Source of the DNA: a virus
IMG/VR virus record: IMGVR_UViG_3300020391_000004
Span: 1 to 64,000 of that record
Reading direction: 5' to 3' (one strand)
Length of the DNA: 64,000 nt
The notes beneath the pieces are model-generated. The model was given only the letters and a program-made list of their open reading frames with translations. It searched no databases and was not told the origin of the DNA. Below are positions 7,707-41,349 of the stretch, piece by piece. The translations under genes were made by a program, and so were the position numbers. Within the stretch, counting starts at the first letter, position 1. Each line of letters starts with the position of its first letter.

Positions 7707-7890
7707 CCTCTATTTTATCTATGATATGTTCTGTGACCGTTTTTCCTGTAGTTTCTTCTACTGCTAAACCTGCCCCACCTGATATGATTCCAGCGGTGTT
7801 TCCTGTAACAAGACTATGCACAAGACTACCTACACCAAATAAAGGGCTACATCCACCTAGCATTAATAATACAACTAGCCTAAGGACCAT
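7687..7890 (-). CDS. Small lipoprotein
   Basis: 67 residues with a lipoprotein signal peptide: a short hydrophobic stretch and the lipobox LGGC (Cys14). A glycine-rich segment SGGAGLAVEETTGK follows. It would be lipid-anchored to the outer or inner membrane of the host during infection. Superinfection exclusion or a lysis accessory (Rz1-like) role is possible but not shown; the proline-rich feature of Rz1 is absent. It overlaps the DadA-like gene by 11 nt. Confidence 0.6.
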   Translation of the reverse strand: MVLRLVVLLMLGGCSPLFGVGSLVHSLVTGNTAGIISGGAGLAVEETTGKTVTEHIIDKIEVDIVLN

Positions 7891-9034
7891 TATATCCCCT
7901 TATTTTTTCTGCAATAGTCTGTGCAGTATAAGCACTCAATGTCCATCCTAAATGTCCATGTCCTGTGTTATACCATACATTAGATTTATTTTTACTTTGG
8001 GCTACTATAGGCATCATACTAGGAGTCATAGGTCTCAGTCCAGCCCAAGGTTTTACATCTTCTGTGTTTATTCCTTCAAACATAGATTCAGCCCAACGTA
8101 CTAAAGGTTTAATTCTTGCTTGAATAATGTCTGTGTTGTATCCATTAAACTCAGCGGTACCTGCTACTCTTAATCTATTTTTTCCTAGTCTTGCAGTAAC
8201 TATCTTTGCTTCGTCATCTAATAAACTTACCCACGGAGCATTTCCTGGATTGTTAATTGTTATACTGTAACCTTTTACAGGATATATAGGCAAATTGTCT
8301 TTAATTGTACTTGCTAATTGTTTACTTCCTGTTCCGGCACAAACTACTATTGGTCCATCAAAGTCTAGTTTATCTACAGTATCAGTTTTAAATACAACTC
8401 CATATTTTTCTTCTAAAACTTTTTCAAGTTCTACGCAAAATTTATGTATATCTCCTGTAAAGTCACTAGTGTTATAAAAGCCTCCTATAATATTAGGATT
8501 GCTTAGTGCAGGTTCAATAGTTTTTATTTCTTCAGTACTAACTTCCCATCTATTTAATCCTGCCGTTCTATATAAATCGTTTGTGGCCCATGCCTGTTCT
8601 AACTCTTCTTCAGTAGTGTAGACATGAAGTATACCTTTTTCTACTTTATCAAACTCTATACCTTCTTCATCTGCAATTTGTTTATATAGTTTGTGTGCTT
8701 CTAAACTCATACGACAGGTTTCTATTGTGTTTACTTTTCTGTTTTTTATTTCTAAAATAAATTTTACAAACCAACTGTATTTGTCTAAACTAGGAGTAAG
8801 GTTTATTTTAAGTGGAGCATCAGGTTGTGTTAACCATTTGATACCTTTTTTAACATTACGCCAACTATTCCATGTTTCAGCATTGCTGGCACTTAGTTGT
8901 CCACCATTAGCATATGAAGTCGCCATTGCAGGATATTTTCTTTCGTCCTGTATAGTGACTTCGTATCCTGCTTTTGCAAGATAATATGCGGTTGTTACTC
9001 CCGTAATTCCTGCACCAATAACCAATGCTTTCAT
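7880..9034 (-). CDS. dadA: D-amino acid dehydrogenase-like FAD oxidoreductase
   Basis: 384 residues of the DAO/DadA family. The N-terminal FAD-binding Rossmann motif is GAGITGVTTAYYLAKAGY with the dinucleotide-binding Asp in VTIQDE. NGGQLSASNAETWN follows, the equivalent of the DadA GGQLS signature, and the C-terminus has GHGHLGWTLS. DadA oxidises D-amino acids to 2-oxo acids and ammonia, passing electrons to the respiratory chain. It lies 4 nt from the SHMT gene, which suggests an amino-acid scavenging module. Substrate is not provable from the sequence; a glycine or sarcosine oxidase-like activity is an alternative. Confidence 0.75.
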   Translation of the reverse strand: MKALVIGAGITGVTTAYYLAKAGYEVTIQDERKYPAMATSYANGGQLSASNAETWNSWRNVKKGIKWLTQPDAPLKINLTPSLDKYSWFVKFILEIKNRKVNTIETCRMSLEAHKLYKQIADEEGIEFDKVEKGILHVYTTEEELEQAWATNDLYRTAGLNRWEVSTEEIKTIEPALSNPNIIGGFYNTSDFTGDIHKFCVELEKVLEEKYGVVFKTDTVDKLDFDGPIVVCAGTGSKQLASTIKDNLPIYPVKGYSITINNPGNAPWVSLLDDEAKIVTARLGKNRLRVAGTAEFNGYNTDIIQARIKPLVRWAESMFEGINTEDVKPWAGLRPMTPSMMPIVAQSKNKSNVWYNTGHGHLGWTLSAYTAQTIAEKIRGYNGP

Positions 9035-9038
9035 TTTT

Positions 9039-10178
9039 TTATCCTAATAATTTACAAATATTACTTGCTAATTTTATAAAAAAGTCTTCCTTATGACCTT
9101 TTGTAGTTTCAGCAGCAGTTCCAATTCTTATGCCACTTGTTTCTACAAAGTTACGAGGATCATTTGGTACACCGTTTTTGTTTACTGTGATCCCATGTGC
9201 TTCTAGTAGGTCTGCTGCTTGCCTGCCACTATGTTTACTGTCACTTAAATCCATTAGTATAATATGACTATCAGTGCCACCAGTCTGTACAGGAAAATTA
9301 TTTGCTTGAAATACCTGACACATTGCTTTAGCATTTGAAACAATTTGTTTTGCATATATTTTATATTCATCTTCTAATGCTTCCATATAACATTGTGCTT
9401 TTGCGGCTATTATATTCATAAGAGGTCCACCTTGTGTACCAGGAAATATTGAACTGTTAATTCTTCTTGTGTAATCTGGATTATTCCAAAGTATCATACC
9501 GCCACGTGGGCCACGTAAAGTTTTATGTGTTGTACTAGTAACTACATCTGCATATGGTAAAGGTGATTCATATGCATGTCCTGCTACTAAGCCACTATAA
9601 TGTGCCATATCTACAACTAAAATTGCACCTATACTATCTGCAATATTTCTGAATGCACTCCAATCGATTTGTCTAGGATATGCACTTGCACCTGCTACTA
9701 TTACTTTAGGCATATTTAATTTAGCAGTGCCTTCAATAATATTATAATCTAAGTAGCCATTTTCATCAACACCATAAGTAACACTATTGTAAACTTTACC
9801 ACTTAGGGTTGGAGGTGCACCGTGTGAAAGATGTCCACCACTTGCTAAGTCCATACCCATTAGTATATCACCTGGTTTCATAAATGCTTGGTATACTGCG
9901 GTATTTGCATTTACACCACTATGTGGTTGAACGTTTGCAAAATCACATTGATATAATTCACAAACTCTATCTATTGCTAATTGTTCAACTTCATCCATAT
10001 TAACACAACCATTGTAATAACGTTTGCCTGGATATCCTTCTGCGTATTTGTTTGTAAAAATACTCCCACATAAATCCATTACTGCTTGGCTTGCATAGTT
10101 TTCACTTGCAATAAGTTCTATAGTTGAATCTTGTCTTTGTTGTTCTTTGTTTAGTATATTAGTAATTTCTTTATACAT
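9039..10178 (-). CDS. glyA: Serine hydroxymethyltransferase
   Basis: 379 residues. The PLP-lysine motif TSTTHKTLRGPRGG is present (K219), with the PLP Asp and His in VVDMAHYSGLVAG (D190, H193), and the N-terminal IELIASENYAS substrate motif. All catalytic residues are kept. It is about 35 residues shorter than bacterial SHMT (~415), so peripheral parts are trimmed. It interconverts serine and glycine with tetrahydrofolate, feeding one-carbon units into thymidylate and purine synthesis. It is adjacent to a DadA-like gene. Confidence 0.92.
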   Translation of the reverse strand: MYKEITNILNKEQQRQDSTIELIASENYASQAVMDLCGSIFTNKYAEGYPGKRYYNGCVNMDEVEQLAIDRVCELYQCDFANVQPHSGVNANTAVYQAFMKPGDILMGMDLASGGHLSHGAPPTLSGKVYNSVTYGVDENGYLDYNIIEGTAKLNMPKVIVAGASAYPRQIDWSAFRNIADSIGAILVVDMAHYSGLVAGHAYESPLPYADVVTSTTHKTLRGPRGGMILWNNPDYTRRINSSIFPGTQGGPLMNIIAAKAQCYMEALEDEYKIYAKQIVSNAKAMCQVFQANNFPVQTGGTDSHIILMDLSDSKHSGRQAADLLEAHGITVNKNGVPNDPRNFVETSGIRIGTAAETTKGHKEDFFIKLASNICKLLG

Positions 10179-12385: not shown

Positions 12386-12823
12386 TTACAGTGTACTCAA
12401 CATCTTTTTTAGTTTTTTCTTTGATTTACCAAAAACCTTTGTTTTAGCAACCAATTTTTTGTTATCGATGTTGTTTCCAACTACTACTAATCCAATCATT
12501 CCCATTGTCTTATGTGGGGTACATTGGTAAAGATAAATTCCAGGTTTTTCAAATGTATAAGTAAACTTCTTATTCATTTTACTTTTAACCTTTTTAATTC
12601 CATCTGGGGCAGCAATGAAATGTACGTTATGTCCTTTTGTTTTAGGTAACCATGTTATTGTATCACCTATCTCAACTTTTACAACGTCTTCAGAGTAGAC
12701 CATCTTTTGACCGTCTGCTCTTTTGTTAAGCATATCAAGTTGCATATCTTTACTGTATGCTAAACCTGAAAACACTACTAAAAATAAATTAACTGTAATA
12801 ACTAATATTAATAAATTTTTCAT
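12386..12823 (-). CDS. Pseudoazurin-like type I copper protein
   Basis: 145 residues. A Sec signal peptide (about 1-24) precedes a cupredoxin domain that begins MLNKRADGQKMVYSEDVVKV, as in pseudoazurins. Copper ligands are all present: H65 in GHNV, C101 and H104 in QCTPH, and M109 in MGMIG. The Cys-x-x-His-x4-Met spacing matches the family. The protein would be a soluble periplasmic electron carrier, normally taking electrons from cytochrome bc1 side carriers to oxidases or nitrite/N2O reductases. A phage cytochrome b lies 3 kb away, which suggests joint manipulation of host respiration. Confidence 0.88.
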   Translation of the reverse strand: MKNLLILVITVNLFLVVFSGLAYSKDMQLDMLNKRADGQKMVYSEDVVKVEIGDTITWLPKTKGHNVHFIAAPDGIKKVKSKMNKKFTYTFEKPGIYLYQCTPHKTMGMIGLVVVGNNIDNKKLVAKTKVFGKSKKKLKKMLSTL

Positions 12824-12825
12824 TT

Positions 12826-13014
12826 TTATTTATTATCCTTTAGGCTGTCGGTTAAAGTTTTTGCTATGTCATAATGTCCATAACAGGCTAATACATGTGC
12901 TGCTCTTTGTTTTCCAATTCTTTCGAATGTTTTGTTAATTTTTCCTGTAGCCAGTGCCCAGCCTACTAAAAAACTTCTAGTCATTGTTTGAGTTCCTAAA
13001 ATTAAAGCGGTCAT
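12826..13014 (-). CDS. Small hypothetical protein
   Basis: 62 residues from the ATG at 13014, which shares TAATG with the stop of the preceding gene; a longer in-frame reading to 13074 would lie inside that gene. The sequence is helical with a hydrophobic N-terminus (LILGTQTMTRSFLVGWALATG) and a basic middle. No family recognised. Confidence 0.5.
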   Translation of the reverse strand: MTALILGTQTMTRSFLVGWALATGKINKTFERIGKQRAAHVLACYGHYDIAKTLTDSLKDNK

Positions 13015-13172
13015 TATATGCCAAACCTTCCGTGTGTTGTGTGTAATTTTTTCATTCTGTATTCTAAATCGCACAAGTCAGTTGACTGTGCAAGGTATTT
13101 CTCGTTAGCACTTCGCGAATCAAACATGTTTCGAAACATTGCCACAAGATTTTTTAATAGCGTCTTAGCCAT
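13014..13172 (-). CDS. DUF3563-like small protein
   Basis: 52 residues. KYLAQSTDLCDLEYRMKKL resembles the core of DUF3563 (YLAQAxDLxDLExRMR), a family of small proteobacterial proteins of unknown function. AAGGAG lies 8 nt before the ATG. It is preceded by a GC-rich leader starting from a TATAAATA element, so expression of this gene may be controlled by RNA structure. Confidence 0.6.
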   Translation of the reverse strand: MAKTLLKNLVAMFRNMFDSRSANEKYLAQSTDLCDLEYRMKKLHTTHGRFGI

Positions 13173-13275
13173 TTTTTTCTCCTTATTAATGTTATATGCT
13201 TGAGGGGAGCAATACCGCGGTCTGTTTCCCGCCGCCACTTGGTCTTTCCCAGGTGCCATGTAGTTTCTACTACAT
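13173..13275 (-). ncRNA. GC-rich structured 5' leader (candidate cis-regulatory RNA)
   Basis: About 100 nt between the late promoter at 13279-13286 and the start at 13172. The 60 bases 13201-13260 have 37 G/C (62%) in a very AT-rich genome. The 5' part forms a perfect 7-bp stem ATGTAGT/ACTACAT with loop AGAA. Two similar segments follow (GGGAAAGACC and GGGAAACAGACC), the second inside a possible GCGG/CCGC stem. I cannot assign it to a known riboswitch class. Confidence 0.5.
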
Positions 13276-13278
13276 TCT

Positions 13279-13286
13279 TATTTATA
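13279..13286 (-). promoter_or_regulatory. Late promoter (TATAAATA)
   Basis: Exact TATAAATA on the minus strand, 106 nt upstream of the start at 13172, leaving room for the structured leader. Confidence 0.65.
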
Positions 13287-13411
13287 GTTATAATACCACA
13301 TTTCTAGGCAAAAATCAACATGCATTTTGTAAAGACGGTATTGCTTTTTTAGCAACAATAGGAGCAAAAATGGTCCTATTCTATATGATATAACAATAAT
13401 GTATTTTTAGT

Positions 13412-14377
13412 TTATAATCCGTTTGGAACTATTACATAGTGTATTGCTAGTACTATTCCTAAACTTGCACCTAAACCTATCATCATCTTCATAAAGTCTC
13501 TTCCTACAATAGGAAATACATTCTTTAGTCTGTATGATCCATTGCTCATTGTACTAATTGCTAGTTCTCTACCACATAGTAGTCCAACAAATACCCAAGT
13601 AGTTGACATCGGTATGTTGTTTAGTTCTTTAAAGACGAACAAGCATAAGAAGTATGCGCCATCAATTATACATGCACTTCGTACATATCTAGTGTGTTGC
13701 TTTTCTAATACAATCTTTTGTATCTTTCCTCCACCTTCACGGAACATAAATCCTAAGCCTAGTACAAATACTAAACTTACACCTATCATCATATCCCATG
13801 GCACTGCTCTTGGCAAAAATACTGCAATATTGGCTACATCATGACTTAACCATGTGAACCATAAGAAGCCTGTTGTAATCCATTGTCCTATACGCCAATA
13901 CTTTTTACGTTCTTCTTTTACTGGATCATTACGTTCATCTAGTCTTCTTGCTACAAGTATCCATAAACAGTAGGCAAACACACCTGCTACTGCATAACCC
14001 ATGATTGATTTCACAAGCATTTTCTCTAGTATAAACGTACTTGCAAAGGCACTTAAAACTAAAAAAGATGTACTAACAGGTACACCTATCCTTGTGAGCA
14101 ATAATAATACTAACGGTGCCATAGCATGATACCATTGTATTTCTTGGAATGGTATCTTAGTTAATCTGCCGTAACTAATATCTCCGCCGTTAGTATACCA
14201 ACCATACCATAAACACCAAAGTAATATTGTGCTACTTGCTCCCCATAATATAGTCCAATGAAATCTTTGATTGTTACTTGCGATCCATGTACCTAATGTT
14301 TGTACACTATCATTCGCAATAACACTATAGCCTGCGAATAAAAATCCCAGTGCCATCCATAATGTTAATTGATCCAT
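13412..14377 (-). CDS. pit: PiT-family inorganic phosphate permease
   Basis: 321 residues, about ten hydrophobic segments. The two PiT half signatures are visible: SVIANDSVQTLGTWIASN near the N-terminus with RIGVPVSTSFLVLSAFAS, and NNIPMSTTWVFVGLLCGRE in the second half. A charged cytoplasmic loop with DERNDPVKEERKKYW separates the halves. PiT carriers import phosphate with H+ or Na+. A phage copy would raise phosphate supply for DNA synthesis in phosphate-poor sea water. An early-type promoter lies upstream and repeated 11-mers lie beside it. Confidence 0.88.
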   Translation of the reverse strand: MDQLTLWMALGFLFAGYSVIANDSVQTLGTWIASNNQRFHWTILWGASSTILLWCLWYGWYTNGGDISYGRLTKIPFQEIQWYHAMAPLVLLLLTRIGVPVSTSFLVLSAFASTFILEKMLVKSIMGYAVAGVFAYCLWILVARRLDERNDPVKEERKKYWRIGQWITTGFLWFTWLSHDVANIAVFLPRAVPWDMMIGVSLVFVLGLGFMFREGGGKIQKIVLEKQHTRYVRSACIIDGAYFLCLFVFKELNNIPMSTTWVFVGLLCGRELAISTMSNGSYRLKNVFPIVGRDFMKMMIGLGASLGIVLAIHYVIVPNGL

Positions 14378-14411
14378 AATCTTCCTCTAGATATATCTTT
14401 AATTAATGTTA

Positions 14412-14440
14412 ATTCTACATTAATATTTAATATCTGTCAA
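14412..14440 (-). promoter_or_regulatory. Sigma70-like promoter of the PiT gene
   Basis: TTGACA (14440-14435), a 17-nt spacer and TAGAAT (14417-14412) on the minus strand, 34 nt upstream of the PiT start. Confidence 0.7.
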
Positions 14441-14457
14441 CTCGAAAAAGATTACAG

Positions 14458-14490
14458 TTTTGTTACAAATTTAATAAACTTTTGTTACAA
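14458..14490 (+). repeat. Two 11-bp direct repeats, 22-bp period
   Basis: TTTTGTTACAA occurs at 14458-14468 and again at 14480-14490, exactly 22 bp apart. PhoB-family regulators bind 11-bp direct repeats, so this could be an operator for the divergent PiT/14525 pair. The repeat unit is not the E. coli Pho box, so the link is inference. Confidence 0.45.
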
Positions 14491-14524
14491 GATGTCAATT
14501 GGTAAATATGTTTAGGAGAGTCAA

Positions 14525-14722
14525 ATGATAAAAAATTTAAAAGATTTAGTTATAGTCTTACTCGTAGGAGGAGTACTCACACTTCTAGGTGTAATAATCA
14601 TAGGTGATTACTATGTTGCATTACAAGAAAATAGACCTATAGACGAGGAAGTGATTACATTAATGAAAATGGCACTTACAGGTCTAATAGGTATAATTGC
14701 TGGTTACATGGGTTCAAAATAG
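14525..14722 (+). CDS. Small two-TM protein (holin-like candidate)
   Basis: 65 residues with GGAG before the ATG. Two hydrophobic segments (about 8-27 and 49-62) flank a charged loop (QENRPIDEEVITLMK). Size and topology are compatible with a holin or a small membrane accessory, but no family motif is seen. It is divergent from the PiT gene and convergent with a small secreted gene, overlapping it by 19 nt. Confidence 0.5.
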   Translation: MIKNLKDLVIVLLVGGVLTLLGVIIIGDYYVALQENRPIDEEVITLMKMALTGLIGIIAGYMGSK

Positions 14723-14934
14723 AATACAGGTTGTAATACAAGTGAGTTCATACTCACACAACCCATTTCGGTAATATCTACTTTTCCATAAGCACGATTA
14801 GCCGAATCTATCATGTTTGTTTGATTTTTACTTACATATGCTTTGCATTCCATCATATTTGTAAATGGAATACTCTGATTAACTTTAATGTCAGATCCAG
14901 ACAATGATGCTATGACAATATAAATGAATATCAT
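14704..14934 (-). CDS. Small secreted Cys-pair protein (paralogue family)
   Basis: 76 residues from the ATG at 14934, which forms TAATG with the stop of the preceding gene. A hydrophobic N-terminus (MIFIYIVIASLSGS) is followed by IPFTNMMECKAYV and, near the C-terminal side, EMGCVSMN. The layout matches the sister proteins at 12089, 14934 and 32847. It is probably periplasmic. Confidence 0.55.
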   Translation of the reverse strand: MIFIYIVIASLSGSDIKVNQSIPFTNMMECKAYVSKNQTNMIDSANRAYGKVDITEMGCVSMNSLVLQPVFYFEPM

Positions 14935-15155
14935 TAGTACACCTTTGTTGTTTTTGTGTTTATTCTTCGTGGTTCGCATACTGCTATGTATGACCTTGTC
15001 TTAGGAACATCATCGCCTGCTGTCCTGTTGGGAACCGGTGGTTGATTAGTTAGCCTCTCTGCAAAATATTTGCAATCATCAACACTGTAAAAATACATGT
15101 TTTGGCTAATTGTTTTTTGTCCGAGATAAAGTATTAGTAAGAATACGTGAGTCAT
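14934..15155 (-). CDS. Small secreted Cys-pair protein (paralogue family)
   Basis: 73 residues. Hydrophobic start MTHVFLLILYLG, then FYSVDDCKYFAERL and a second cysteine in YIAVCEPRR. It is the tandem neighbour of the 14704 gene and shares the TAATG junction. Role unknown. Confidence 0.55.
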   Translation of the reverse strand: MTHVFLLILYLGQKTISQNMYFYSVDDCKYFAERLTNQPPVPNRTAGDDVPKTRSYIAVCEPRRINTKTTKVY

Positions 15156-15161
15156 AATATA

Positions 15162-15638
15162 TCAACTAGTATATACTACTGCTCCAATTACTGCTCCTGC
15201 ACCAATTATTACAACACCTATTACTAAGAGAACTGTTTTTATATCTGCCCATAGTTCTGCATCTGCTTTACGTTTTTCTATACGTGCTTGTTTTTCAGCC
15301 TCTTTAGCTTCTTGGATACGTTTTGCACGTTCATCAACAATACCTTGCCAAGTTCCAGGACCAAAACGTAAATTTATAAGTGTAGAAATTTCCTGCAATT
15401 GCTCAGCGGCTAGTCGTGCATCTATTGTTTCTCTTGCAATATGTGATGCGTCAAATTGTTCCTTTACACCTAATCCTTTCTTATTGGATCTTCTGTTTAC
15501 TTCGTCTTTTCCGCGAAATAAAGCATCAATATGACTACCTAATTCACCTATGTCTTTACAAGTGTCTATATTTGATTTTATAAATTCTACACTAGATTTC
15601 ACTAGTGCAATACCCGCAAGTATTTCTGCTACTGGCAT
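15162..15638 (-). CDS. Coiled-coil protein with C-terminal TM anchor
   Basis: 158 residues from the ATG at 15638 with AGGA 8 nt upstream; an in-frame ATG five codons earlier lacks a site. An N-terminal amphipathic region (PVAEILAGIALVKSS) is followed by a helical middle with many Lys/Arg/Glu (ERAKRIQEAKEAEKQARIEKRK) and a C-terminal membrane segment IGVVIIGAGAVIGAVVY. No family recognised. A late promoter is 28 nt upstream. Confidence 0.5.
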   Translation of the reverse strand: MPVAEILAGIALVKSSVEFIKSNIDTCKDIGELGSHIDALFRGKDEVNRRSNKKGLGVKEQFDASHIARETIDARLAAEQLQEISTLINLRFGPGTWQGIVDERAKRIQEAKEAEKQARIEKRKADAELWADIKTVLLVIGVVIIGAGAVIGAVVYTS

Positions 15639-15666
15639 AAAATATCCTCTCATTATCTCTCAATAG

Positions 15667-15674
15667 TATTTATA
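15667..15674 (-). promoter_or_regulatory. Late promoter (TATAAATA)
   Basis: Exact TATAAATA on the minus strand, between cytochrome b and the gene starting at 15638. Confidence 0.65.
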
Positions 15675-15682
15675 CTACTATA

Positions 15683-16894
15683 TTAAGACTTGAGTACTGA
15701 TACTCCTATGCTAATAGGTAAGGGTTTTGTCTTTTCGAATTTTGGAAGTAATGGTAACAATATCATAAAGTGTATAAAATAATATGCAGTTGCTATTCTA
15801 GAAAGCACAACATATATGCCTTCAGCTGGCATAGCACCTAAATATCCTAGTGCAATACAATCTACGAACAGGATCCAAAAGAATATTTTATACCAAGGCC
15901 TAAATGTACTGCTTCTCACAGGTGACCTATCAAGCCACGGTAAAACAAACAATACGACTATAGCACCAAACATTAATAGCACTCCACCTAGTTTGTCAGG
16001 CACTGCACGTAGTATTGCATAGAAAGGTAAAAAGTACCATTCAGGAACAATGTGGGCTGGAGTTACCATTGGGTTTGCAGGTATGTAATTATCTGGATGC
16101 CCCATAAAATTTGGAAAGAAAAATATTGCAGCAGCAAATAATGTTAAGAAAACTCCTAGTCCAAATAGATCTTTAATTGTGTAATATGGATGAAAAGGTA
16201 GTGTATCTTGTGTTCCTTTAATATCAATTCCAATAGGATTGTTAGAACCAAATCTATGTAATGCAACTAAATGTAATATTACTACTCCAACTATAACAAA
16301 TGGAAGTACAAAATGCAAACTAAAGAATCTGTTTAACAGTGCATTGTCTACACTAAAACCACCCCATAGCCATGTAACAAATTGTTCGCCTACTAATGGT
16401 ATTGCACTAAACAAGTTTGTAATAACCGTTGCACCCCAGAAGCTCATCTGTCCCCATGGTAATACATAACCCATAAAAGCAGTTGCCATCATTAGTAGTA
16501 GTATTAGTACACCTAGTATCCATAACAGTTCTCGAGGTGCTTTGTAACTGCCGTAATAGAGCCCTCGGAATATATGAATGTAAGTTACAATGAAAAAGAA
16601 ACTTGCTCCATTCATGTGTATGTAACGTATTAACCATCCGTGATTTACATCTCGCATAATACGTTCTACACTATCAAATGCATAATCAACGTGTGCAGTA
16701 TAATTCATACTTAGAACAATACCAGTGATTATCATTGTGACTAGTGCTATACCACTAAGACTTCCAAAGTTCCACATATAGTTTAGGTTCTTTGGAGTAG
16801 GGTACTCGTTAAGTTCGTGATTCATAAAAGTGAATATACCAAGTCTGTGGTCTATCCAATTTACAACGGAATTTTTAAATTTTTTATTTGCCAT
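15683..16894 (-). CDS. petB: Cytochrome b of the bc1 complex
   Basis: 403 residues, full length for a proteobacterial cytochrome b including the C-terminal transmembrane helices. Haem ligands are all present: H93 and H107 in helix B, H194 and H208 in helix D, each pair 14 apart as in bc1 (b6f helix D has 15). The Qo-site motif PEWY is at 284-287, and [12 protein letters not shown] is conserved. The protein would take part in quinol oxidation in the inner membrane. No Rieske or cytochrome c1 gene is in the window, so it would need host partners. The sequence looks functional, not decayed. Confidence 0.95.
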
Positions 16895-17061: not shown

Positions 17062-18090
17062 TTACACTTTAGCCATAGTCAACTTTAATTGCACAAATAC
17101 TTCTTTAGGACTAGCAGCACTTGGAATAATACTAATACCATGAGCACCAAATTGTCCAGCTTCTCTATACTTCGCAAAGTCTCCTCCGTTATTTACACAA
17201 ATATATTTGAGATTGGAAAAATTTATTGCTAGTACACTATCAAATCCGTGACTTGCTTTATAGCTATCAAAATTTGCTTTACCGTACATAATCTCTGCAC
17301 GTTTTGAATCATCTTGCATAAATGCTTCTACAAATGGTCCAGGATTTTTAAATATTGTATCATACCATTTACCTAGCATTTCTTGTCTTTGTTTCTTTTT
17401 CTCAGGATCATTTAATGGTAAATCTATACTAAGATATTTCATAAAATTATCTAATCCAAGAGTTGCTTGTTTGGATATATGATTTGCAATGCTAGGAAGT
17501 TGTGTCCAATATTCCTTAGCTACTGCAGCAGTAGGGCCTCCTTCACCTAAGCGACCTCCGCCTGTTTTCATTTCTGCTTTTACTTCAATACCGGCTCCGT
17601 CGACCGAAATATCCCCGCCGGTATCTTTAAGTGTTATCTTATTTGACAACATTGCTAGTGCATATTCTCCAGGACCTTTTTGTTTTTTTCCGGCTCCGAG
17701 AGTAGCAATAGATTGAAATATTCTTGTTGCAGTCTCATCACCATCAAAAAATGATCTTACTGTTCCAATACCAGGTGTCTTTACAACTGAGGTATTTACG
17801 ACGCTTCCTGTTTCTAGTTTATCTAAAAATTTTACTAAACTTTTATAGTCTACGCCTGAATGGTAAATCATCTGTGTTAGTATTTTCAAAAGGGGCTCTA
17901 GTTTAAATGTGTCATCTTGTGTTGGTGGAATAAAAGATTTTGCAATTTTAGTGCTAATATCTTCGCTACTTAATGTTCTATATATTCTATCCAACAACTC
18001 AGCATCTTGTTCGTTATCTGCTCGCAGTCCAGATACAGAAGCAATAATTGCCTTTTTCATTTCGTCGGAGTTAAGTTCATATAACAGCAT
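17062..18090 (-). CDS. PD-(D/E)XK nuclease-like protein with capsid-targeting-like N-terminus
   Basis: 342 residues. The N-terminus MLLYEL fits the shared signature M-x-[LFY]-x-E-x found in nine proteins here. In the middle, G-E142-Y, D160 in TGGDISVDG and E169-V-K171 in GIEVKAE form a convincing PD-(D/E)XK nuclease core. That would make it an endonuclease possibly packaged in the head and injected with the DNA (inference). No similarity to a named restriction enzyme is claimed. Confidence 0.5.
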   Translation of the reverse strand: MLLYELNSDEMKKAIIASVSGLRADNEQDAELLDRIYRTLSSEDISTKIAKSFIPPTQDDTFKLEPLLKILTQMIYHSGVDYKSLVKFLDKLETGSVVNTSVVKTPGIGTVRSFFDGDETATRIFQSIATLGAGKKQKGPGEYALAMLSNKITLKDTGGDISVDGAGIEVKAEMKTGGGRLGEGGPTAAVAKEYWTQLPSIANHISKQATLGLDNFMKYLSIDLPLNDPEKKKQRQEMLGKWYDTIFKNPGPFVEAFMQDDSKRAEIMYGKANFDSYKASHGFDSVLAINFSNLKYICVNNGGDFAKYREAGQFGAHGISIIPSAASPKEVFVQLKLTMAKV

Positions 18091-36091: not shown

Positions 36092-37262
36092 GTAAATTAT
36101 TTACCATGCCCCAATAAGGTTCTAAAAGTTTATATGTGTTTGGAAATGCTTTACTGTAATCTTGATTACGAAATATATCTTGTCGCTTTGTCCAAACTAT
36201 CATACGTTCTAAATCTTTCAAATTAGCAGTCTCAATCATTAGATAATTTTTAATGTCCTCATCTTCTATTGTATGGACTATTTTATCTTTTAAAAAATCA
36301 GGCAAGTTTGTCATTCTGTAATGATTAGGATGATCTACTATGTTAAAATGGACAGTTTTCAACTTACTACGTAACCAATTAGAAGTTTTTTGATAGTCCG
36401 CTATGTTAATTAGGCTAACACATTGACTACCTTGAAAGAACCAGTCTACTTTCGGATAACGATTTGGTAAATCTAAGAACCAATCTATATTTTTTACAGT
36501 TTTATTCCAATCTCCTGGCCAACGTAAATATGTAAACTGTTCCTCAATTCCGTCAATGCTAAAAAAAAGTTCTATACGTTTAAATTGACTCCATAACTTT
36601 TCATAGTGCTTTGCAATCTGTTGTCCATTAGTGCTGTAAAATAATGTTGTATGCTTTGCTCTATCAGCTTCTATAAGTTTTTTTAAAAGCACTGCATGAG
36701 TTTTATCCAGTAATGGTTCTCCACCAAAAAAACTTATTTTTTCCACATTGACTAAATCTTCGAGTTGGTAACTACTACTGTTATGATATGTTTTATCCCT
36801 ACGTTGTATAAAGTCATTATCTTTTGCACCATATACTTCTTCATAGTGTTTACCTTCGGGCCAATATAAACTTGTATCCCACCCTCCGCATGTCCTACAT
36901 GCAAGGTTACATACATTAGTGGTTTTAATTACAAGTTCTCTAGGACCCTTTTCCCAACCAATATTATTAGTACCATATTGATCATTAGTTCTAAGACGTA
37001 AACTATGTATACCAGCATCCTCTTCATCCCAACAACGTTTACATTCGCTAGGACGTTCTCCTTTTAAAAATTTATATCTTAAAGAATTAAGTGCAGGATG
37101 ATTCCATCTATCCTTTTGTGATGTATCGTGATTTACTTGAACTTCAATAGGACCAAAAGCACATGGACTAATCTTATCCCAGGCGGTCTGTCTTGTTGAT
37201 ACAAACGGACTACTGCAAAAATTTTTAGAGGGTGAATCCACTAAATGTGTCTTTTTCAACAT
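36084..37262 (-). CDS. Radical SAM protein with N-terminal twitch-type Cys
   Basis: 392 residues from the ATG at 37262. FCSSPF and CKRCWDEEDAG at the N-terminus form the twitch-type auxiliary cysteines, and CNLACRTCGGWD is the CxxxCxxC cluster motif, with SFFGGEPLLDK as the SAM-binding GGEP. The layout matches the N-terminal-twitch radical SAM family (NF033640-like, from memory). It is the first gene of a string running to the amidinotransferase. The NrdB C-terminus overlaps it by 38 nt. Confidence 0.82.
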   Translation of the reverse strand: MLKKTHLVDSPSKNFCSSPFVSTRQTAWDKISPCAFGPIEVQVNHDTSQKDRWNHPALNSLRYKFLKGERPSECKRCWDEEDAGIHSLRLRTNDQYGTNNIGWEKGPRELVIKTTNVCNLACRTCGGWDTSLYWPEGKHYEEVYGAKDNDFIQRRDKTYHNSSSYQLEDLVNVEKISFFGGEPLLDKTHAVLLKKLIEADRAKHTTLFYSTNGQQIAKHYEKLWSQFKRIELFFSIDGIEEQFTYLRWPGDWNKTVKNIDWFLDLPNRYPKVDWFFQGSQCVSLINIADYQKTSNWLRSKLKTVHFNIVDHPNHYRMTNLPDFLKDKIVHTIEDEDIKNYLMIETANLKDLERMIVWTKRQDIFRNQDYSKAFPNTYKLLEPYWGMVNNLHE

Positions 37263-38346
37263 CCTGTTTTGTACCACCAATTATGTAACTTGAGATTTCT
37301 GTTTCTTGTGGTGCAACCTGTACTTCACCACCTGCAATCCATTTACTAGTCCAAGGTAAAGGATTTGCTTGTGGAACACTATATGGACTTTTTAATCCTA
37401 CTGCATTCATACGTTTGTTTGCAATCCATTCAATATATTGATCTAATAATTGTTTGTTTAATCCTATCATTGAACCATCTTTAAACAAATAGTCCGCCCA
37501 TTGTTTTTCTTGGTCTACTGCATCAACAAACATCTGTATACAATCTTCTCTTGTTTCTTCTGCAATCTTTGCAAAATCTTTATCATCCTTAGGAAGTATT
37601 TTTAATAATTGTTGTGTCGAACCTAAGTGTACATTCTCATCACGAGCAATAAATTTAATAATTTTAGCATTGCCTTCCATCTTTTTAAGTTCTGCGAATG
37701 CCCAACTACATGCAAATGATACATAAAAACGTACACCTTCTAAAATGTTTACACTCATAAGTGTTTTATATAATAATGTTTTCAATTCATACAAATCAAT
37801 TACAATCTTCTTACCATTTACTGTATGTGTGCCTGCTCCTAATAAATTATAATATGCAGACTTTTCAATTAGTTCATCATAGCATAATGTAATACTATCT
37901 GCACAGTCTACAATCTCCTGTACGTCCATCATTTCATCAAATATTTTACTTGGATCACTGTACACGTTACGGATTATATGTGTGTAACTACGGCTATGAA
38001 TTGTTTCACTAAATGTCCATGTTGTAATCCAGTTCTCAAGTTCTGGTAAACTAGTAATAGGATTAAATGCTTCCGCAGGTGCACGACCTTGAACACTATC
38101 TAATAATATTTGTCTTTTTAAATTACTTGTAAACACATGACGTTCATTGTCAGTAAGTTCTTTAAAGTCTTTACTGTCTTTCAATATATCTACTTCCTCA
38201 GGTCTCCAAAAGAATCCTAATTGCTTGTCTGTAAGTTTATCAAAGGCACGATACTTTAGTGTATCATATCTTTGCATTCCTAGTTCTCCATCAAAGAAAC
38301 ACATTTTCTCTGTGTGGTCATGTTTACTTGTGTTTAATACGCTCAT
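37225..38346 (-). CDS. nrdB: Ribonucleotide reductase class Ia small subunit
   Basis: 373 residues from the ATG at 38346 with AAGGAC upstream. The iron-and-tyrosyl region FSETIHSRSYTHIIRN retains the ligand Glu and His and the radical Tyr, and DENVHLGSTQQLL supplies a second Glu and His. RNR makes deoxynucleotides for phage replication. It pairs with NrdA at 39049. The C-terminal residues (VEKDTFSGFTL) would bind NrdA. Confidence 0.93.
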   Translation of the reverse strand: MSVLNTSKHDHTEKMCFFDGELGMQRYDTLKYRAFDKLTDKQLGFFWRPEEVDILKDSKDFKELTDNERHVFTSNLKRQILLDSVQGRAPAEAFNPITSLPELENWITTWTFSETIHSRSYTHIIRNVYSDPSKIFDEMMDVQEIVDCADSITLCYDELIEKSAYYNLLGAGTHTVNGKKIVIDLYELKTLLYKTLMSVNILEGVRFYVSFACSWAFAELKKMEGNAKIIKFIARDENVHLGSTQQLLKILPKDDKDFAKIAEETREDCIQMFVDAVDQEKQWADYLFKDGSMIGLNKQLLDQYIEWIANKRMNAVGLKSPYSVPQANPLPWTSKWIAGGEVQVAPQETEISSYIIGGTKQDVEKDTFSGFTL

Positions 38347-38356
38347 GGTTAGTCCT

Positions 38357-39046
38357 TTACTTTTGCGTTTTATCAAATACTAAACGAATATTTCCGTTTA
38401 GAAATGCATTGTATACTGAAAAATCTATATCTATACAAACAAAGTTTAGTTTAGAATTATATAGCTCTGCTCTAATGTAACTGTCAATAATTTGTAGATA
38501 TTTAGTATCAGGACTAAATTTTTTAAAATCATAAATTCCAAGGAAATCTAAATGTTCTGTTCTTTCCATCATCCTTGCTAAATTAAAAGTTACAAATGCT
38601 CTGCCTTTGTCTGACAAAACAAGATTTATTTGATACAATCTTTCATTTATTTGAGTGATTGGAATAAAGTGTATTGCATTAATAGAAATCAATGATTGTA
38701 TAGCATTCTCATATTTGTTAATAAAATTGTAATTAAAAGTATCACATAAATCAGCCTTATCATTTTCTGGATCAATACCAATTATTTCAGGATAGTATTT
38801 TTTTAATAAATTACTTCCGCAACCAATATCGTAAATAGTGCCTGTATTTTTTTCAGTTAATAAATTTGTATAATAAAAAGATGCAATTGAAAAACAACTA
38901 GTCATGCAATCTTCACGTGGTGATGAAAACGCTTGACTTACTTCATTATCTATAATTAGATCGTAATCGTTTTTGATTTGCTTTCCAATATCTGTAAGTA
39001 AAAAACTTTCTTTAAATCCAGATGGCATTTGATTTATATTTTCCAT
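38357..39046 (-). CDS. SAM-dependent methyltransferase-like protein
   Basis: 229 residues from the ATG at 39046. TIYDIGCGSNLLKKYYPEIIGID is a clear motif I/II pair of a class I methyltransferase. The rest is less conserved. It lies between nrdB and nrdA, which is unusual, and starts right after the NrdA stop. Its target is unknown. Confidence 0.65.
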   Translation of the reverse strand: MENINQMPSGFKESFLLTDIGKQIKNDYDLIIDNEVSQAFSSPREDCMTSCFSIASFYYTNLLTEKNTGTIYDIGCGSNLLKKYYPEIIGIDPENDKADLCDTFNYNFINKYENAIQSLISINAIHFIPITQINERLYQINLVLSDKGRAFVTFNLARMMERTEHLDFLGIYDFKKFSPDTKYLQIIDSYIRAELYNSKLNFVCIDIDFSVYNAFLNGNIRLVFDKTQK

Positions 39047-39048
39047 TT

Positions 39049-41349
39049 TTATATCGTACATGCCTCACAGTCTTCCTCAATTATTTCGTCCTCTGGAATT
39101 TGCAAGTTTACAGTATCAACAAGTTCACTCATATTGTCTCCACTGCCGTCAAATGTGTTAAAATAATATAATTGTTTAGTACCATATTTATATGCCATTA
39201 ATAAATGTTGCAACATAGTACTCATTGGTATTTTTTCTTCTTCGAAGTGTTGCGGATTATAACTAGTGTTTACACTTATTCCTTGGTCAATATATTTTTG
39301 TAATACTGCCATTATTTTTATATAACCTTCAGGACTTTTTTGATCCCATAATAATTCATACTTATTTTTATATCTATAAAATCCAGGAACAACTTGTTTC
39401 AGAACACCATCTTTACTTTGTTTTACACTTACAAATGCTCTAGGTGGTTCAATACCGTTTGTAGCATTTGATATTTGTGCAGATGTTTCGCTAGGCATTA
39501 GTGCCATTAATGTGCTATTACGTATTCCTGTTTCACTTAATTGTTTACGTAAGCCTGTCCAATCCATACGTTCCTTATGTACTATAAGATCATCAACATC
39601 TTTTTTATATGTTTGATTAGGCGTTATGCCATCACTATACTTCGTTTCATTGTTTCCAGGACAAGCACCTTCCTCGGTTGCTAGATCTGCACTTGCTTTT
39701 ATTAAGTAATAACTCCATGCTTCTGCATATTCATCTACTAAATCTAAATTAGGATTACTATAGTTTGTATCATTTTTTGCTAAAAAATATGCAAGATTAA
39801 TTATACCAATGCCTAAAGGTCTGCGTTTTATTGTGCTTGCCTGTGCAGCCTTTACAGGATAGTCTTGATATGTAAGTAGTGCATCAAGTCCACGCACTGC
39901 AAGTTCGCATGGCTTTTTAAAATCTTCTGGTTTACGAATATTACCCCAATTTACTGCACTTAAAGTACAAAGTGCAATTTCTCCTTCTTCATCATTAAAG
40001 TCGTTTAATGGTTTAGTAGGCAAATCAATTTCACAACATAAATTACTTTGTCTTATAGGAGCGACTTCTGTTTTAAAACTACTATGTTCATTTGCATGGT
40101 CAACATTCTGTAAATATATTCTTCCTGTGTTTTTACGTTCTTCCATAAAACTTGCAAATAAAGCACTAGCAGGAATAGATTTTTTACGTATACTAGTTTT
40201 ACGTTCTGCTTGTTCGTATAATTTTTTAAATTTATCTTGGTCTGCAAAAAAGGATTCATATAATCCAGGCACATCATGCGGAGAGAACAATGTAATGTTT
40301 CCACCAGATATCAAACGTTCATAGAATAATTTACTAAACTGTACGCCATAATCCATATGTCTTACTCTATTATCCTCTGTTCCTTTATTGTTCTTTAGCA
40401 CTAACAATTCTTCAATTTCATAATGCCAAATAGGATAGTAAAGTGTTGCAGCACCATTACGAACTCCACCTTGACTACAACTTCTAGTAGCACTTTGAAA
40501 CATTTTATAAAATGGTATTACACCTGTGTGGTAAGCGTCTCCGTTTCTAATTGGTGAACCCAATGCACGAATACTTCCTGCTCCAATCCCAATGCCTGCT
40601 TTCTGGGATACGTACTTAACGATACTGCTAGTAGTAGCATTAATACTGTCCAAGCTATCTGCAGTTTCAATGAGTACACAGGACGAAAACTGCCTTTGCG
40701 GCGTTCGTACGCCAGCCATAACAGGAGTAGGCAAACTAATATCAAAGGTAGATATTGCATCATAATAATCCTTTACATATTGCATACGTATGTTTTTTGG
40801 ATAATGTGCAAACAAAGTTGCCGCAATCAATACATATGCCATTTGTGGTGTTTCATATATTGTATTTGTTACACGATTTTTGACAAGGTATTTACCCCTA
40901 AACTGTTCCATAGCCGCATAGGTTAGTTCTTCATCTCTATCATGTTTAATAAAGTTATTAATTACACTCCATTCATCTTCATCGTAACTTGTTATTAATT
41001 CTTTATCATAAAATCCAATGTCAACATTACGTTGTACTAGTTTCTTAATATGCCATGGTTCGAATTGTCCATATACCATTTTACGTAAATGATAATTAAT
41101 TAATCTTCCTCCAACATATTGATAACCTGGTGTTTCTTCGCTTATCAAATCTGCCGCACTTTTTATTAGTGTTTCCTGAATATCTACGCTAGGTATACCA
41201 TCATAAAATTGTACATTGCTACGTAATTCAACTTCGCTTTCACTTACACCTGTAACACCTTCACAGGCATAAAAAACGACCTTGTGGAGTTTTTCCAAGT
41301 CAAGGTCTTCTGTAGTTCCATCTCTTTTTTTAACTTGTATATTGTTCAT
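39049..41349 (-). CDS. nrdA: Ribonucleotide reductase class Ia large subunit
   Basis: 766 residues. An ATP-cone-like N-terminus precedes the (alpha/beta)10 barrel. The active site N-x-C-x-E is in QSNLCCEIDLPTKPL, and the redox Cys in FSSCVLIETADSLD is present. The C-terminal tail ends EEDCEACTI with the swinging-arm cysteines CxxC. All key residues are retained. It works with NrdB and the phage glutaredoxin. Confidence 0.95.
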   Translation of the reverse strand: MNNIQVKKRDGTTEDLDLEKLHKVVFYACEGVTGVSESEVELRSNVQFYDGIPSVDIQETLIKSAADLISEETPGYQYVGGRLINYHLRKMVYGQFEPWHIKKLVQRNVDIGFYDKELITSYDEDEWSVINNFIKHDRDEELTYAAMEQFRGKYLVKNRVTNTIYETPQMAYVLIAATLFAHYPKNIRMQYVKDYYDAISTFDISLPTPVMAGVRTPQRQFSSCVLIETADSLDSINATTSSIVKYVSQKAGIGIGAGSIRALGSPIRNGDAYHTGVIPFYKMFQSATRSCSQGGVRNGAATLYYPIWHYEIEELLVLKNNKGTEDNRVRHMDYGVQFSKLFYERLISGGNITLFSPHDVPGLYESFFADQDKFKKLYEQAERKTSIRKKSIPASALFASFMEERKNTGRIYLQNVDHANEHSSFKTEVAPIRQSNLCCEIDLPTKPLNDFNDEEGEIALCTLSAVNWGNIRKPEDFKKPCELAVRGLDALLTYQDYPVKAAQASTIKRRPLGIGIINLAYFLAKNDTNYSNPNLDLVDEYAEAWSYYLIKASADLATEEGACPGNNETKYSDGITPNQTYKKDVDDLIVHKERMDWTGLRKQLSETGIRNSTLMALMPSETSAQISNATNGIEPPRAFVSVKQSKDGVLKQVVPGFYRYKNKYELLWDQKSPEGYIKIMAVLQKYIDQGISVNTSYNPQHFEEEKIPMSTMLQHLLMAYKYGTKQLYYFNTFDGSGDNMSELVDTVNLQIPEDEIIEEDCEACTI

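Follow-up and report, generated by a model that had tools for sequence, protein, structure and literature searches.

The locus considered here raises the question of what a marine phage might gain from a cytochrome b of the bc1 type and, not far from it, a pseudoazurin. The window, i.e., the whole stretch of DNA analysed, comprises 64,000 nucleotides and corresponds to bases 1-64000 of the 131,614-base (131.6 kb) IMG/VR record IMGVR_UViG_3300020391_000004. An earlier note on this DNA described the two genes as a phage-borne "respiratory pair" that may keep host quinol oxidation running, and held that a bc1 subunit was not a described phage auxiliary gene.

That the carrier is a phage genome is borne out by the terminase large subunit, tail sheath, UvsX, DnaB-like helicase, and DNA polymerase that the record encodes, and the record is that of a large T4-like marine phage. 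Its terminase reaches a best identity of 52% against GenBank phages, and a tRNA search of this phage DNA found none. The GC content (0.31-0.36) is even over 12-17 kb of the window, and thus gives no sign of the chimeric join that the earlier note had named as something that would refute its reading. No other contig repeats the window's own arrangement around cytochrome b, whose precise junctions are therefore known from one contig. The phage has other metabolic genes as well. A FAD-dependent oxidoreductase (DAO family) and a serine hydroxymethyltransferase lie side by side at 7880-10178 of the window as further auxiliary metabolic genes, and a ferredoxin with two 4Fe-4S type motifs and a DUF3470 domain, another electron-transfer gene, is found at genome positions 79950-80312. 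By eye, the products of 83596-84918 and 84930-85817 of the genome look like the membrane subunit and the binding protein of a tripartite tricarboxylate transporter (TctA/TctC-like), the binding-protein candidate having no Pfam match at E ≤ 0.001; a small protein at genome position 64366 was dropped as a candidate NqrM, its likeness being by eye only (Pfam E = 0.37).

Regarding the cytochrome b itself, the petB-like gene (15683..16894, minus strand) encodes a lone subunit of 403 amino acids with intact haem and Qo/Qi residues, and the full-length bc1-type protein with four haem histidines and a PEWY motif, as first read from the letters, is confirmed by domains, residues, PDB matches, and a structural model. 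The Pfam domains Cytochrome_B (1.6e-76, residues 30-216) and Cytochrom_B_C (1.6e-45, residues 272-373) are both present at full length in a single chain, the haem histidines are residues 93, 107, 194, and 208, PEWY occupies residues 284-287, and the Qi residues H213, K241, and D242 are present. The best matches in a PDB sequence search are cytochrome b chains of complex III, and the AlphaFold model (mean pLDDT 74.9, pTM 0.76) has the predicted fold of a bc1 cytochrome b, with a TM of 0.88 and an E of ~1e-31 against the Rhodobacter and Paracoccus proteins (2fyn_A: TM 0.88). PHROGs contains no cytochrome b family. Directly upstream stands a conserved backbone gene of T4-like phages (17062..18090, minus strand, 342 aa), after which other genes come in relatives, whereas in the window it is cytochrome b; directly downstream, a gene for a 163 aa protein of an unknown family (15162..15653, minus strand) has no Pfam match and weak homologues in L193 and L203. 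Candidate late T4-like promoter boxes (AATAAATA) can be picked out 11-13 bases upstream of the starts of both cytochrome b and pseudoazurin, and were not used because the strand is A-rich.

In cells, this protein does not stand alone. In SAR116 (in the context of L081/L082) the gene is flanked by those for a Rieske protein and for a CXXCH protein as large as c1, and most other cellular relatives keep the same Rieske-cytb-c1 (petABC) order. In contrast, neither the Rieske protein (PF00355) nor cytochrome c1 (PF02167) gave a match in the window genome or in any of the 45 viral cytochrome b records checked, with positive controls; these records include ones of 155 kb and 172 kb, and many others are fragments, so that the absence is unproven for each single phage. 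Both partners needed for a complete bc1 complex are therefore missing from these sequences, and the one protein with a CXXCH motif that the window genome encodes, tried as a cytochrome c, was rejected because it is a glutaredoxin. Since the partners are missing from all 45 records, operon-like carry-over is ruled out, and since a single subunit cannot form bc1 and no partner is encoded, host subunits are required.

The reading that we consider likely is that this cytochrome b is a host-derived auxiliary metabolic gene, whose product replaces one subunit alongside the host Rieske protein and c1 and sustains the Q cycle. During infection, cytochrome b freshly synthesised from the phage gene would take up host haem b, assemble with the Rieske protein and cytochrome c1 supplied by the host, and replace host cytochrome b that is damaged or no longer synthesised; the hybrid bc1 would then maintain the proton-motive Q cycle, and hence the ATP supply, up to lysis. 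From the sequences we infer that the gene is expressed, that its product assembles with host subunits, and that the phage benefits. Maintained quinol oxidation, as the earlier note proposed, is the best reading because neither gene is damaged, they are carried by a phage, and the relatives are under strong purifying selection; what the proposal lacked is the dependence on host subunits that a lone subunit entails.

The search for the gene in related phage genomes, suggested at the outset, covered 2.9 million viral contigs (IMG/VR) and returned 75 further viral loci that encode cytochrome b, mostly on contigs that are fragments; the identity is 87-92% in 38 of them and 56-66% in the other 37. 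A second scan with a distant member as the query (a cytochrome b of clade C1, described below) added two new contigs only, which indicates that, with the patterns used, few further viral copies are left to find. Among 50,697 GenBank phage records there was no credible homologue, and GenBank holds no cultured phage with cytochrome b; the sole match, in a Helicobacter phage record, was dropped as support because it sits right at the terminus of that record, where the sequence could be flanking host DNA.

A maximum-likelihood tree of 97 cytochrome b proteins, which includes the comparison with marine alphaproteobacteria that had been called for, forces at least six virus/cell label changes and places the window clade beside SAR116 and other viral clades beside other alphaproteobacteria. 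The window copy sits inside a supported phage-only clade (clade A) that is sister to SAR116 L081/L082 (support 100/98), its nearest cellular relatives at 89 and 87% identity. Elsewhere, L067 (identical to L056 and L057) is sister to the cellular gene L331, which comes from the order of a Pelagibacteraceae genome (97/96), and L063/L064 are sister to L167 of a 1.4-Mb alphaproteobacterium (100/98); the larger phage-only clades C1 and C2, plus clade B, occupy the same region of the tree. This topology indicates that cytochrome b is host-derived and has been acquired repeatedly by phages, and phage copies should track cellular lineages in this way if the protein has to match the partners that the host provides. 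The window phage may accordingly have a SAR116-like host, as the phylogeny of this one gene suggests. The direction of some of the changes may have been phage-to-cell, with cells receiving copies from phages. Separately, L331-L333, L167, and L311 are streamlined alphaproteobacterial genomes with normal petABC order, whose cytochrome b groups with phage copies and apart from other SAR11; here a phage-to-cell replacement is possible.

The neighbourhoods of cytochrome b vary widely among viral contigs but are made up of phage genes, and the same order of phage genes around it is found in many separate metagenomes. A ribonucleotide reductase (RNR) gene occurs no more than 3 kb upstream of cytochrome b in 40 of the 66 loci with enough upstream sequence. 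In clade A the arrangement is a class II RNR, a DUF1289 protein, a small protein, and cytochrome b; in L002, L021, L029, and L031 another class II RNR and then small genes precede it; and in C1 the order is nrdA-nrdB-cytochrome b, with a gap of ~13 bases. The window has an nrdA (39049-41349, minus strand, phrog_84) and an nrdB-like gene (37225-38376, minus strand, assigned from its position and from homologues adjoining nrdA in C1 contigs), and it is homologues of this pair that lie directly upstream of cytochrome b in the C1 lineage. On the other side, 29 loci have a gene for a SegE-like GIY-YIG endonuclease that begins 9 bases past cytochrome b and may be a means of spreading the cytochrome b gene by homing; contigs with it include L013, L018, L055, and other clade A contigs. 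The locus can also differ by cytochrome b alone, as in L029 and L252, whose flanks are ~96% identical and which show a clean single-gene difference, cytochrome b being missing from L252.

Throughout this distribution the protein has been kept intact. Among 20 checked residues, which comprise the haem ligands, PEWY, Y143, Y292, Qi H213, K241, and D242, and others, 19 show no variation across the 66 full-length phage copies, so that the four bis-His haem ligands, PEWY, and the Qi His/Lys/Asp are present in every one; the twentieth, D300, is kept in 65 and varies freely in cellular cytochrome b. In the window clade, the median pS is 0.67, with synonymous sites near saturation, and the median dN/dS is ~0.04, similar to or below the cellular values (0.064 for SAR116, 0.057 for SAR11). 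These phages have thus had cytochrome b for a long time, and purifying selection on it is strong, so that decay and accidental carriage are refuted; conserved inactivating changes, which would speak against a working enzyme, were found in none of the phage relatives. Host-derived, in a phage genome, and kept intact by selection, it has the properties of an auxiliary metabolic gene.

The main rival to plain replacement concerns what the phage version does once in place. Compared with SAR116 cytochrome b, the phage copy has fixed changes at positions 12, 19, 104, 172, 185, and 186, and such fixed phage-specific changes mean that phage copies may not be plain replacements. The phage protein could enter the host bc1 and alter its stability, its resistance to damage, or its sensitivity to quinol or inhibitors, or slow it in part, so that respiration would be retuned and not just maintained. 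Position 186, which lies close to the second ligand of haem bL (and, in our own counting, presumably corresponds to yeast T175), holds Thr in 103 of 104 cellular copies; 97% of clade A have Leu there and about half of the other phage copies Phe, a change that is convergent between phage lineages; Pro19 to Gly and Ile172 to Phe are fixed in clade A, and the segment 164-190 is less like SAR116 (0.81-0.83) than the rest of the protein. The sites of these substitutions, 186, 172, and 19, are nearly fixed in cellular cytochrome b. However, every checked catalytic residue is kept, selection is strongly purifying, and the changes could be neutral or reflect shared ancestry in a phage pool, and we therefore regard retuning as rather unlikely, if worth keeping in mind.

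The lack of partner genes in the window genome and in the 45 checked records might instead point to a role without Rieske protein or c1, such as that of a haem-bearing protein for quinone redox chemistry or proton leak, or of a membrane protein for superinfection exclusion. This we consider very improbable, because the Qo, Qi, and Rieske-docking regions, unneeded for such a role, are kept, and the phage lineages adjoin particular cellular petB lineages in the tree; moreover, we know of no stand-alone bc1-type cytochrome b. The docking segments of the window protein are nearly those of SAR116 (cd1 100%, ef loop 97% identical), which fits subunit replacement, but every cytochrome b conserves these segments and the comparison is therefore not specific. 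Cellular contamination, chimeric assembly, or passive transduction of a host petB is likewise a very improbable explanation, since, although cellular genes in viromes are documented (PMC3877843) and the only GenBank phage match may be host flank, the recurrent phage-gene order in separate metagenomes, the absence of petA/petC flanks, the place of the window copy within a supported phage-only clade, and the clean presence or absence of cytochrome b between near-identical phages all stand against it.

We now turn from the proposed replacement subunit to its supposed companion. The pseudoazurin gene (12386..12823, minus strand) encodes a type I copper protein of 145 aa (Pfam Copper-bind, 1.4e-17), whose PDB matches are solved pseudoazurins (3tu6_A, 3.9e-27) and whose copper ligands H65, C101, H104, and M109, located from the alignment to these matches, are intact, as anticipated; the His-Cys-His-Met site and the homology to solved structures make it a pseudoazurin. 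It is likely exported to the periplasm, judging from a Sec-like signal peptide recognized by eye. Where present, it would carry electrons in the periplasm, taking them up on the acceptor side of bc1. At least 110 marine viral contigs encode a homologue, and a tblastn search with the window protein gave no match among GenBank phages; L233-L310 are among the viral pseudoazurin contigs. The cyanophage plastocyanin petE (phrog_515) is likewise a phage type I copper electron carrier, which the window protein matches at 8e-8, but the window protein is of the pseudoazurin type.

The distance between the two genes is 2.86 kb, close to the 3 kb first given, and they are not adjacent. Cytochrome b and pseudoazurin share a contig in only 4 of 76 cases, namely one of the 45 larger cytochrome b records, the short contigs L021 and L028, and the window. 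The rarity among the larger records led us to reject pseudoazurin as an obligate partner of cytochrome b. In L021, L028, and L029, cytochrome b starts almost directly after the pseudoazurin stop codon, and L031, ~90% identical to L021, has cytochrome b and lacks pseudoazurin. Within the phage group of L021, L028, L029, L031, and L252, the two genes are optional modules of one locus, gained and lost independently, which argues for related functions and not for obligate pairing; the "respiratory pair" is thus borne out in part. Between the two genes, the window carries a putative PiT/PHO4-like phosphate transporter (13412..14377, minus strand; PF01384, E = 5.6e-5, a weak match below the cut-off), with homologues of 74-79% identity near or adjoining pseudoazurin in other viral contigs. 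A DoxX-family gene often comes after phage pseudoazurin, and some contigs have the PiT-like transporter close to the pseudoazurin gene or adjoining it; this recurring set of accessory genes is exemplified by 12386-14377 of the window, L205, L236, L240, L262, L274, and L233; the DoxX-family gene of the window phage is at genome positions 88293-88715.

The closest known system is that of cyanophage psbA/psbD, in which the phage has taken from its host one core membrane subunit of an electron-transfer complex and lacks most of the partners; this subunit is under purifying selection and keeps energy conversion running in infection (PMC11360552), a function that cytochrome b would share. The two differ in that one serves cyanobacterial photosynthesis and the other would serve alphaproteobacterial aerobic respiration. 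From the cellular petABC cytochrome b of SAR116, with which it shares 89% identity, fold, and catalytic residues, the phage gene differs in standing alone. As for novelty, a description of phage cytochrome b was not found in the main text of openly accessible journal articles, and the global-ocean catalogue of auxiliary metabolic genes (PMC11360552) does not mention cytochromes in its main text. The claim that the gene was undescribed needs a qualification, because K00412 (CYTB/petB) is listed without description among virome KOs in two studies (PMC3877843, 2013; PMC10653327, 2023). These lists, like the cydAB of a vent virus (PMC12043954), are respiratory genes annotated in viral sequence, but in the passages concerned cytochrome b comes without its genomic surroundings, a phylogeny, a test for selection, or a survey of partner genes. 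Electron-transport auxiliary genes are therefore known in phages, and a bc1 core subunit with this distribution is new.

Taken as a whole, the picture would be one of repeated, independent capture from different alphaproteobacterial hosts and spread between phage families, often next to ribonucleotide reductase and with an adjacent GIY-YIG endonuclease, of a phage-specific version that replaces the host subunit, a counterpart of viral psbA for the dominant heterotrophs; in all its parts together, we hold this to be an even chance. In the surface ocean, respiration is chiefly the work of aerobic heterotrophs such as SAR116 and SAR11, and viral psbA altered the view of cyanobacterial infection; a viral core subunit of respiratory complex III would be the heterotroph match to it. 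The phage gene makes it possible to test which factor holds back phage production in cells that are poor in energy and do not photosynthesise, and provides a gene marker for metatranscriptomes. That the partner subunits were lost and that capture happened repeatedly together suggest that, of the bc1 subunits, cytochrome b is the one whose renewal is most important during infection, and the findings suggest that marine viruses renew part of the host respiratory chain while they infect, as cyanophages do with photosystem II.
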